From Ruminococcaceae bacterium R-25 (GTDB lineage Bacteria; Bacillota; Clostridia; Saccharofermentanales; Saccharofermentanaceae), in contig QGFZ01000001.1 in NCBI GenBank assembly GCA_003149065.1, positions 496,001-560,000 on the forward strand: a stretch of 64,000 bases of DNA, read 5' to 3'. The position numbers were made by a program, and so were the translations under genes. The notes under the pieces are model-generated. The model was not told where the DNA came from, did not search any database, and was given only the letters and a program-made list of their open reading frames with translations. Below, piece after piece: positions 13,246 through 52,284 of the stretch. The first letter of the stretch is position 1, and every line of letters starts with the position of its first letter.

Positions 13246-15081
13246 ATGAGTAAGACTGTAGCAACTTGTATTGCCGAGACTAACCTGGTCCCGGGAGAGC
13301 CTCAGGAGAATGTATTCTTTCTTACACTTTCCCGTAAGACTGAAGACTTCCCGAATGAGTTCCTGAGAACTGCCAGATCGACATCACCTATCCAGATCTG
13401 CGCAATTTTCTCAACGATCGGTCCTGATAACCTTTCTGCAGTATTGAACCTTGAGCTCAATGCAGAGTTGGAGAGAATCGCATCCGTTTGCGCTAATCAG
13501 GCTGTTCTTGATTTTGACGGTTTCGCAAACCAGGTAATCAATAATCTTAATGTTAAGGTCTGCAACTTTGCAGCAAATAAAGGAATACAGTTCAAGACTT
13601 CAATGTCTATGTTCGTAATCGAAGGTGATATCCTTCGAGTAATCCATGTAGGTATCACAAAGGCTGTCCTTTATAGAAACAAGCGCATCATGCTCCTTAC
13701 TGAAGAGCAGACCGTAGCACACAGATATGCTCAGATGGGCGCTATCCAGCCTTCAGAAGAGTTAACACATCCCGAGAACATGAACCTTACCCAGTATCTC
13801 GGAAAGATGCCTCAGGAAGGTCCCGTAAATGCAGACAAGAAGGTTCACATCAAGCTTCAGGATAACGACGAGTTATTCCTCATGGGCGTAGGCCTTTCAA
13901 GAAAGCTTCCTTCACAGATCCGCAATTCCATCATCGCTAAACCCTTAACTACAGAAGTTAAGTCCAAAGATATTATCAATGCAGCAGTAAGCTATGGAAT
14001 CAAGTCCGGTCTTACTCTTATTGATATCAAAGTCGAATCCACATTCCTGCTTCCCGGCGATGCAGTTATCAACAGCAATCTCAGAACTGAAGCACAGCTC
14101 GCAAGGCAGGATGATCATAATAAGGCTGAATCCAATGCGTTCACTGATTTTGAGAATGAGACTGATCTGGATTACGATTCTGATTCTTCAGATACGATCA
14201 ACTATGTGCCCGGTTCTGCAGTAGCTAGCTATGCTGAAAGCGATGAAGAAGAGGTAATAGTAAACGAGAAGAAGGAGAGAGTTAAGACTATCCTTATTCC
14301 TCTTATTATCTTCATTGTCTGTATCCTGCTTGGTTTCGGCGTTACATTCTTCGTATTTAATATGAAGGACCTCATCGACTTAGGTGGTACATCTTCAACC
14401 ACACTTCCGACAGGCGTTGGTTCTGTCCTTTATTCAACCGAAAACATGGTTCCCGTATATTCAAAAGCATCCGAAGATGCAACAGTTATCGGAACTCTTA
14501 ATATCGGTGATCCCGTAACACTCAAGGAGATCACCAATGAGCTGTTCTCAAAGATCGTTACCAAGAATAACGTTACCGGTTATGTTTTGAGCGAGAAGCT
14601 TACAGCAGAAAATCCCATTACCGGCACCAGCGAATACGATCCTTTCGGTGATTCAACTTCAGTCACAACAGGTGAAGTTACATTACCTGACGGAGAGACG
14701 GTTCAGACAACCGGAGTTAAGAAGGATAACATTTACTTCCCGACAAAGGCTTCGCCGACTCCTACAACTACTTACGAGACAGACGAGAACGGTAATCCTA
14801 TTATTCCGACTCCGACACCTGATCCGAATAACCCGACGAAGACACCGGATAATCCGACACCTACACCTAAGCAAGATAATCCGGATAATCCGACACCAAC
14901 ACCTAAACAGGATAATCCGGATAATCCGGATAATCCGACTGATCCGCCGAAGCCGACCGATCCGCCGAAGCCGACTGATCCGCCGAAGCCGACCGACCCG
15001 CCTAAGCCGACAGATCCGCCGAAGCCGACCACTCCTCCGGATAATGGCGGCGGAAACAATAACAACGCTAACGAAGGCTGA
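13246..15081 (+). CDS. Membrane-anchored degenerate PP2C-like protein with SH3-type and proline/threonine-rich extracellular region
   Basis: 611 residues. Residues ~1-265 follow the order of a PPM/PP2C phosphatase: a GITKAVLYRNKR segment where GDSRxYLxR belongs, then LTEEQTV, a HPENMNLTQYLG stretch, DELFLMGVGL in place of DxLLLCSDGL, and a final LTLIDIKVE strand. The metal-binding aspartates are gone: STIGP (56-60) stands for DGMGG, GITK (136-139) for GDSR, GVG (214-216) for SDG. It is probably a pseudophosphatase. An acidic linker, one membrane span (~348-372), an SH3-like domain (~390-455) and a Pro/Thr/Asp/Asn-rich tail (~500-611) follow, so the phosphatase-like part would be cytoplasmic and the rest outside. 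TGGAG precedes ATG by 9 nt. The role is unknown; a signalling or cell-wall sensing scaffold is a guess. Confidence 0.75.
   Translation: MSKTVATCIAETNLVPGEPQENVFFLTLSRKTEDFPNEFLRTARSTSPIQICAIFSTIGPDNLSAVLNLELNAELERIASVCANQAVLDFDGFANQVINNLNVKVCNFAANKGIQFKTSMSMFVIEGDILRVIHVGITKAVLYRNKRIMLLTEEQTVAHRYAQMGAIQPSEELTHPENMNLTQYLGKMPQEGPVNADKKVHIKLQDNDELFLMGVGLSRKLPSQIRNSIIAKPLTTEVKSKDIINAAVSYGIKSGLTLIDIKVESTFLLPGDAVINSNLRTEAQLARQDDHNKAESNAFTDFENETDLDYDSDSSDTINYVPGSAVASYAESDEEEVIVNEKKERVKTILIPLIIFIVCILLGFGVTFFVFNMKDLIDLGGTSSTTLPTGVGSVLYSTENMVPVYSKASEDATVIGTLNIGDPVTLKEITNELFSKIVTKNNVTGYVLSEKLTAENPITGTSEYDPFGDSTSVTTGEVTLPDGETVQTTGVKKDNIYFPTKASPTPTTTYETDENGNPIIPTPTPDPNNPTKTPDNPTPTPKQDNPDNPTPTPKQDNPDNPDNPTDPPKPTDPPKPTDPPKPTDPPKPTDPPKPTTPPDNGGGNNNNANEG
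14941..15030 (+). repeat. Five tandem 18-nt repeats encoding D-P-P-K-P-T
   Basis: Five in-frame copies of GATCCGCCGAAGCCGACC with third-position changes, at 14941, 14959, 14977, 14995 and 15013. They are preceded by looser PDNPTPTPKQDN repeats (about 14815-14940). They encode the proline-rich tail of the host protein, likely an extended wall-spanning stalk. Confidence 0.9.
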
Positions 15082-15198: not shown

Positions 15199-15420
15199 TT
15201 TGGGACACGCCTGAAAAATAAGAAATGTCCCGATTCTTAAGAATCCAGGTGTTTGGGACACGAGCAACCTTAAGAATGTGTCCCGTTTAGCGCAACTTTG
15301 AATGTTCGGGACACGTGGAACAAGTGAAACGTGTCCCAACTCGAAAGAAACCGTGTTTTTGGGATAAAAGTGACGCTCGAAACGTGTCCCAACCTTCACA
15401 AATCTGAGCATTTGGGACAC
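15199..15420. repeat. Tandem array (period exactly 53 nt) of alternating inverted arms
   Basis: The word GGGACAC recurs at 15202, 15255, (GGGATAA at 15361) 15308 and 15414, always 53 nt apart. Its reverse complement GTGTCCC recurs at 15225 (as ATGTCCC), 15278, 15331 and 15384, again 53 nt apart. Extended arms are about TTTGGGACACG and CGTGTCCCAA. Between arms the sequence is unconserved: about 12-16 nt inside a pair and about 17-20 nt between pairs. Each unit can form a hairpin and any left arm can pair with any right arm. It lies between the convergent pseudophosphatase gene and lysC. No coding function is seen. Confidence 0.9.
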
Positions 15421-15532
15421 GAAACCCTTGCGATTCGCGTAGGATTTACGAATAATCCGGTCTACGTGAAAATCTCGTAAAAATGCTCATAATTCCTGAA
15501 ATATCCACGAGATTGACTATTATCGTGAATGC

Positions 15533-15643
15533 AGTGTAAAAACAGTGCGTAAAACAGCCGGTTTGTGTACTGGATTTACACTAAAGGCCTTCTAGTGTAA
15601 AAACAGTGCGCAGAACGCAAGATTTATGCACTGGATTTACACT
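15533..15643. repeat. Two copies of a 50-nt palindromic element
   Basis: Copy 1 (15533-15582) and copy 2 (15594-15643) each begin AGTGTAAA and end TTTACACT, with an inner CAGTGC matched by GCACTG (GTACTG in copy 1), so each folds into a nested hairpin. The middle ~14 nt differ. An 11-nt spacer containing the palindrome AAGGCCTT separates them. They resemble REP/BIME-type intergenic palindromes. The 112 bases before them (15421-15532) show nothing I can name. Confidence 0.85.
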
Positions 15644-51799: not shown

Positions 51800-51852
51800 A
51801 ACGGCCTGACACAAGTTCTTCACGGAATGCTTTGGGTTGGTTAATAGTTTTC

Positions 51853-51873
51853 TGCTGAAATCAGCATTTTTTT
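51853..51873 (+). terminator. Terminator of the hydrolase gene
   Basis: TGCTGA / TCAGCA stem with a tiny loop and a T7 run, 54 nt after the stop. Confidence 0.82.
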
Positions 51874-51876
51874 CGA

Positions 51877-52041
51877 TTTCAGTTAAGAAAATCAATGATT
51901 TCTTGACTGAAATTTCAATTTATGAATCTTTCGGTTAAGATTTTTCAAAAAACTTAACTGAAATCTCCTTTTTTCAAGATTTCAGTCAAGATTTTGACTT
52001 TAAACTTAACTGAAATCCTGTATTTTAGAAATTTCAGTAGA
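51877..52041. repeat. Second inverted-arm tandem array (period 51-52 nt)
   Basis: Left arms TTTCAGTTAAGA (51877), TTTCGGTTAAGA (51929), TTTCAGTCAAGA (51980) and a truncated TTTCAGTAG (52032) alternate with right arms TCTTGACTGAAA (51901), ACTTAACTGAAA (51952) and ACTTAACTGAAA (52004). Geometry per unit is 12-nt arm, 11-12 nt spacer, 12-nt complementary arm, about 16-nt spacer. Spacers are AT-rich and unconserved. It lies between a terminator and the tRNA-Leu promoter. In 52042-52157 only a separate hairpin (CATTTGGA / TCCAAATG, 52102-52126) is visible. Confidence 0.88.
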
Positions 52042-52197: not shown

Positions 52198-52284
52198 GCA
52201 GATGTGGTGGAATTGGCAGACGCGCTAGCTTCAGGTGCTAGTGGGAGCAATCTCGTGCGGGTTCAAGTCCCGCCATCTGCACCA
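52198..52284 (+). tRNA. tRNA-Leu (anticodon CAG)
   Basis: An 87-nt class II tRNA. Acceptor stem GCAGATG / CATCTGC, anticodon stem CTAGC / GCTAG with loop TTCAGGT (anticodon CAG, reads CUG), a long variable arm (GGGAGCAATCTC region), T arm GCGGGTTCAAGTCCCGC and an encoded ACCA end. Confidence 0.97.

Follow-up and report, generated by a model that had tools for sequence, protein, structure and literature searches.

The question raised by this locus is whether short arrays of alternating inverted arms that share a layout, and no arm sequence, form one class of repeat, and what such arrays could be for. The window, i.e., the whole stretch of DNA that was analysed, comprises 64,000 nucleotides of Ruminococcaceae bacterium R-25 (C1:496001-560000 of a 3.07-Mb genome in 7 contigs); the nearest relatives of its aspartokinase were rumen MAGs labelled Saccharofermentans or Clostridiales, with best identities of 90-97%. 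A sequence-only reading had described arms alternating with a period of 51-52 nt at positions 51877-52041 and an array with different arms at 15.2 kb, and had proposed a class of element defined by geometry. Both the alternation and the second array held. The span was slightly short, the true extent being 51852-52040 with the first of eight arms missed, and a third array was found beside the second. The features are as follows.

51852-52040, no strand: the element in question, 4 hairpins with 8 alternating arms (core CTGAAAT / ATTTCAG), period 51-52; first arm CTGCTGAAAT from 51852, last arm ATTTCAGTAG to 52040, limits based on the alignment with the copies in L031, L254 and L261
51875-51888, minus strand: arm 2, GATTTCAGTTAAGA
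51901-51913, plus strand: arm 3, TCTTGACTGAAAT
51928-51940, minus strand: arm 4, CTTTCGGTTAAGA
51953-51965, plus strand: arm 5, CTTAACTGAAATC
51978-51990, minus strand: arm 6, GATTTCAGTCAAG
52005-52017, plus strand: arm 7, CTTAACTGAAATC
52031-52040, minus strand: arm 8, ATTTCAGTAG
15199-15421, no strand: second array, TTTGGGACACG / CGTGTCCC arms, period 53
15533-15643, no strand: third array, two 50-nt double-stem hairpins with outer arms AGTGTAAA, period 61

The array at 51852-52040 sits in the gap between the end of a hydrolase gene (51799) and a tRNA-Leu gene at 52198, and its arms were spaced 52, 51 and 52 from start to start in a repeat search. The hairpin pattern recurs at C1:318239, C1:1157357 and C2:43466, which gives four genomic copies, and was absent from all 58 congeners under an exact-pattern search. 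When aligned, the four copies start with CT(A/G)CTGAAAT and end with ATTTCAGTAG, and likeness ceases beyond these points (the L254 excerpt was cut short at its end); the outer arms common to all four, CTACTGAAAT...ATTTCAGTAG, are thus terminal inverted repeats of dispersed copies. The array is therefore one copy of a dispersed four-hairpin element.

Regarding the second array, exact TTTGGGACACG arms were found three times within 15199-15421 and only once elsewhere in the genome, outside any array (C1:1458567). The gap that holds the second and third arrays carried no array in five relatives. A separate repeat lies at 14845-15030, where tandem repeats of 9, 18 and 36 nt code for the Pro/Thr/Asp-rich tail of a 611-aa SH3-domain protein (13246-15081); this tail is strongly different in relatives.

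Arrays were sought with a scanner that ignores arm sequence and accepts any exact 7-mer which alternates with its complement in at least four copies with gaps up to 45. The window and sampled stretches of the own genome (828,993 bases) yielded 22 arrays after one low-complexity coding repeat had been dropped, three of them within the window, and their arms fall into at least 13 families. The same scanner found no array in dinucleotide shuffles (1,282,041, 1,539,441 and 1,322,434 bases) and none when 20 further own-genome stretches were shuffled three times, which excludes chance as the source of the arrays for the scanner used. The TGTATCGA family has 51 hairpins in the own genome and one in congener G019, with none in 22 other congeners or in 16 genomes of the same order. 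It occupies 17 loci, nine of which keep eight arms spaced 31/22/31/20-21/31-32/22/31; some copies share up to about 415 bp mutually, others only the 196-bp array. For a nested AATGACT family, the own genome gave 12 forward matches and G006 a single match in each direction; 57 other congeners gave none.

Congeners gave 20 arrays with other arms in 1,272,855 bases, in 7 of 29 sampled genomes, and arm families were largely species-specific. No array was found among 16 genomes of other families of the same order (229,553 bases), nor in 287,584 bases of the aspartokinase loci of 24 relatives. Congener G012 holds an island of five arrays of three arm types in about 1 kb (L139 7076-8122). Farther away, the arm-blind scan flagged Ligilactobacillus ruminis DSM 20403 (L086), whose genome has 111 hairpins built as TACGGGCA...TGCCCGTA, many of them lined up in units of 52 bp; two further arm types were met in the sampled stretches, TTACGGACA in arrays with units of 51 and 62-64, and GTAGAACA in an array where a spacing of 73 occurs nine times. 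In this last array (L238 16110-16482) the units are exactly 73 bp and alternate long linkers are almost identical, possibly a hint at a duplicated 146-bp double unit; recent unit duplications are present in L. ruminis arrays. Pseudobutyrivibrio sp. YE44 has TTTATCAA arrays with hairpins 73, 94, 94 and 83 bp apart, and Pseudobutyrivibrio ruminis CF1b (G078) has nine single TTTATCAA hairpins, several of them sequence-identical on different contigs and therefore a dispersed element in one-unit form.

The set analysed further comprised 56 arrays (own genome 22, congeners 20, L. ruminis 14). A low-complexity coding repeat (L039:18346) and a short-unit array (L148:972) were left out, and the scanner flags L083 (units 77/35), L089 (28) and L148 (31/16) were not counted as members. 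Array densities in the relatives are no estimates, because congener sampling was uneven (L149 and L228 were picked around pattern matches, and genomes known to bear arrays were sampled deeper, so that the sample was partly chosen around matches and carriers) and matches had guided the choice of four to five of the eight stretches from L. ruminis. An arm-independent covariance model was dropped, as MAFFT did not keep unrelated arms in register (A1, 135 columns). The structure-aware scan that had been suggested as a check was thus run on sampled stretches, and it revealed further arrays with other arms in the own genome and in relatives. Since arm sequences differ between families in the own genome, in 7 of 29 congeners, in L. 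ruminis and in a Pseudobutyrivibrio, the proposal of a class defined by geometry is supported.

The property held in common by these arrays is the length of the unit. The first unit, measured automatically, was 50-53 bp in 28 of the 56 arrays, 61-63 bp in 18 and 72-74 bp in seven (53 of 56 in total), the remaining three values being 46, 75 and 76 (one array each); longer units of 83 and 94 also occur, so that the full range is roughly 5-9 DNA turns. When 36 values representing 32 arm families were listed, 35 of them fell on a ladder near 52, 62.5, 73, 83 and 94. The list was made by hand, with averages or a nested sum (50 or 51 + 12) entered where a family had several spacings. Its one value off the ladder is 68, from L157 5605-5723 in the own genome, where two near-identical 51-nt hairpins lie 68 bp apart, the one clear exception. 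For this list R(10.5) was 0.85, and none of 20,000 uniform random sets was as strong; the best-fitting period was broad (10.7) and the fitted ladder step was 10.6. Some off-ladder spacings exist (46, 48, 49, 61 within F1, 37, 42 and 44), in part degenerate or extra arm matches.

These statistics treat families as independent, and common descent could keep the 52-bp unit. Because independence may fail in this way for the 52-bp rung, the stronger evidence for the ladder is likely to lie in the other rungs and in families that occupy two of them, i.e., ATTGACG (61-62 and 73-74) and TTACGGACA (51 and 62-64). In some units of 62-63 bp, the length is made up of 50 or 51 bp and a further 12 bp to a nested copy of the arm. 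Families differ in arm length and in how the unit is divided into hairpin and linker, whereas the sum of hairpin and linker, the unit length, is kept in steps of about 10.5 bp. The dimensions first proposed (12-nt arms with spacers of 11-12 and 16 nt) hence held only in part, as one case among several. A unit length near whole DNA turns despite free letters suggests that these arrays of gut and rumen bacteria are read as shaped DNA and not by way of any fixed sequence.

A second helical signal was found inside single units. Across 56 pooled units, the power of AAA/TTT exceeded that of shuffles at 10.0 bp (z = 12.6) and 10.5 bp (z = 10.3), an excess that vanished below 9 and above 12 bp. Compared with other intergenic DNA, the own 22, the congener 20 and the L. 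ruminis 14 arrays were higher both in A-tract power and in curvature as predicted by a wedge model. Phasing of A-tracts at about 10-10.5 bp is accordingly met in the pooled set, but only partly by the window's three arrays taken singly: at 51852-52040 A-tract power was high (1 of 200 shuffles as high) and curvature was not (33 of 200), at 15199-15421 curvature was high (4 of 200) and A-tract power was not (25 of 200), and at 15533-15643 neither was high (62 and 31 of 200).

Regarding gene context, own-genome gaps with arrays, as judged from simple ORF calls, were convergent, tandem and divergent in 9, 8 and 1 cases, compared with 18, 82 and 41 for gaps without arrays; convergent gaps were enriched (Fisher, p = 0.0006) and divergent gaps depleted (p = 0.044). 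Pooled with congeners and L. ruminis, the counts were 15, 20 and 4 versus 45, 234 and 110, again with enrichment of convergent (p = 5.4e-5) and depletion of divergent gaps (p = 0.013). No ORF that the script retained contained any of the 56 arrays; overlapping ORFs shorter than 160 aa were discarded beforehand, so this count speaks only for longer ORFs. A link to the neighbouring genes was rejected: of some 40 flanking proteins of the own arrays, 20 were scanned, and these were ordinary, e.g., GroEL, trigger factor, ArgJ and aspartokinase. Four of these 20 had no Pfam match.

A position at gene ends would also suit an RNA-level element, i.e., hairpins that act at transcript 3' ends as terminators or as protection of the mRNA. 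This explanation is supported by the 3'-end context, by a terminator-like hairpin that overlaps the first arm of the window element (51853-51866) and by the strong single-strand folding of the window copy (RNA z = -7.27, DNA z = -6.94). Such folding follows from the inverted arms, however, and any array of this kind must fold. Terminator-like sites occurred within 150 bp of only 16 of the 56 arrays (no background was computed), and neither helical-turn units nor phased A-tracts are predicted by an RNA-level element. Among 61 distinct hairpins of the TGTATCGA family, 19 changes affected one arm and none was compensated, which points to separate half-sites rather than selected base pairing. The evidence on compensation is mixed: absent in this family, it is present at one arm position in L. 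ruminis (GGGCA versus GGACA), mostly switched on both arms, with 15 compensated versus 8 single changes and, in a second, overlapping set, 32 versus 10. Two sub-families with concerted arms would give such matching. At gathering score, Rfam matched only tRNA in the window; six array-bearing loci gave no match other than a yjdF riboswitch that lies outside the array. The latter is an azaaromatic (yjdF) riboswitch in congener G047 (L186 1-106, 53.4 bits) and is unrelated to the array there. Taken together, the RNA-level explanation is unlikely, and because RNA folding needs neither whole turns nor phased A-tracts, double-stranded DNA is favoured as the thing read.

The main rival is a non-autonomous mobile element, whose arms would be the sites of a trans-acting transposase or recombinase, whose phasing would reflect a synaptic complex and each of whose families would have, or would once have had, an enzyme of its own. 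In its favour, whole elements with exact outer-arm limits lie at unrelated loci (four for the window family, 17 for the TGTATCGA family), the arms of TGTATCGA hairpins are at least 90% conserved across loci while spacer columns fall to about 30-50%, and arm families are largely species-specific. Against it, the Y1 (RAYT) transposase PF01797 had no match in the own genome and none in five of nine other array-bearing genomes; the other four had matches, and with the transposase in only part of the array-bearing genomes it is not required for the arrays. Only 6 tyrosine-recombinase matches were found versus at least 13 arm families; the enzyme search covered Y1 and tyrosine recombinases only and no other transposase families. 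No transposase, integrase or phage protein occurred among the 20 scanned flanking proteins, no target-site duplication was seen by eye in the flanks inspected (without an empty-site comparison of the same insertion), and no plasmid match to the window element was found. The rival remains possible. Two particular vehicles were rejected: a larger mobile element enclosing copies of the TGTATCGA family, as the shared 415 bp leave no room for a transposase, and, on an exact-pattern search alone, carriage by viruses, the exact TGTATCGA hairpin being present in one viral-contig stretch and TTACGGGCA in six, one hairpin each.

Comparison with known systems bears on both the mobile and the structural readings. 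Like the BIMEs and REP elements of Enterobacteria and Pseudomonas (PMC2817692, PMC3733652), the arrays consist of alternating palindromic intergenic units, multi-copy and dispersed in clusters, in convergent or unidirectional gaps, and this mark of REP/BIME is met. The GTAG/CGTC tags are not: they were found at 14 of 56 array ends versus 23% of random places (own genome 9 of 22, above random; congeners 3 of 20; L. ruminis 2 of 14), although the copy at 51852-52040 has GTAG at its end. Identity with REP/RAYT was rejected on the Y1 and tag results. The arrays furthermore differ in having many unrelated arm families per genome and a unit length in helical steps, whereas the spacers of REP dimers are described as varying (20-100 bp). 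MITEs, including BrickBuilt of P. gingivalis with its internal minisatellite (PMC4596501), are likewise short, dispersed and non-coding, with tandem internal units in the present case, but their arms stand only at the ends instead of recurring through the whole element, and no related transposase was found for the arrays (Y1 and tyrosine recombinase searches only). Clusters of helically spaced A-tracts have been linked to bends and nucleoid structure (PMC3940949); the arrays share A-tracts at the helical repeat and differ in that these are gathered into tandem arrays of inverted repeats, each at its own discrete place between genes. CRISPRs are likewise regular in their units, with repeats conserved and spacers free; here the arms alternate in orientation, the spacers are common to dispersed copies, and no cas context occurred in the flanks scanned. 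attC, res and TIGR-type arrays, though attractive, were rejected as well, by general comparison only. No description of arrays like the present ones was found in the open-access literature searched (subscription papers and preprints were outside its scope): the repeat-related sections of two L. ruminis genome papers deal with CRISPR only (PMC3231920, PMC7016997), neither Firmicutes nor lactobacilli are named in the relevant sections of a REP survey (PMC3733652) and those of a REP tool paper contain one Bacillota table (PMC12306157). Neither Rfam nor this literature yielded a known family covering the arm types.

A third explanation is that of a neutral by-product, in which arms are copied by template switching at quasi-palindromes and units by tandem duplication, without function and with inherited phasing. 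It is in line with homogeneous arms and diverged spacers within arrays, with the recent unit duplications in L. ruminis and with the absence of arrays from the same gap in five relatives. It leaves unexplained why unrelated arm families from two Bacillota classes follow the ladder and why single units have phased A-tracts, as well as the avoidance of divergent gaps unless purifying selection alone accounts for it, and is considered unlikely. The related suggestion, that arms diverge between arrays and are homogenised within them, fits the kept arms and diverged spacers but was not shown.

The preferred reading is a non-coding array of double-stranded DNA with dyad-symmetric sites on one face of the helix and a BIME-like use. 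What is shown comprises the arrays, the freedom of their arms, the unit-length ladder, the pooled A-tract phasing, the gene context and the dispersal of copies; for the reading built on them, the grounds for doubt slightly outweigh those for acceptance. Each unit would be an inverted arm pair around a spacer of free sequence, with successive units whole helical turns apart (5, 6, 7 and sometimes 8 or 9), and helix-registered A-tracts would often bend the DNA of the array. A wrapping or bending protein such as DNA gyrase or an HU-type nucleoid protein may then bind the array cooperatively; this step is inferred, and no cognate binding protein was found. A dedicated protein per family is unlikely because one genome holds at least 13 arm families. 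Binding between genes, mostly where transcription ends or converges, would serve a topological role, again by inference; BIMEs lie between convergent or unidirectional genes, BIME-2 is said to bind DNA gyrase, and BIMEs are thought to act with gyrase and IHF (PMC2817692). Copies may spread by tandem duplication of units and dispersal of whole elements, which is likewise inferred. A bolder version, which is less likely than not, is that of a geometry-defined repeat class with arbitrary arms, quantised in whole turns and built on phased A-tracts, which would arise or spread repeatedly with new arms across species of Clostridia and Bacilli as shape-coded docking for a protein that organises the chromosome or manages its topology.

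Bacterial repeats are usually found and named by sequence, and a class kept by geometry would escape such searches and be split into small families. The turn-by-turn ladder offers a sign, direct and open to test, that what is read is the double helix itself, and Ligilactobacillus ruminis, which is culturable and carries over a hundred such hairpins, is a place to seek the binding protein.
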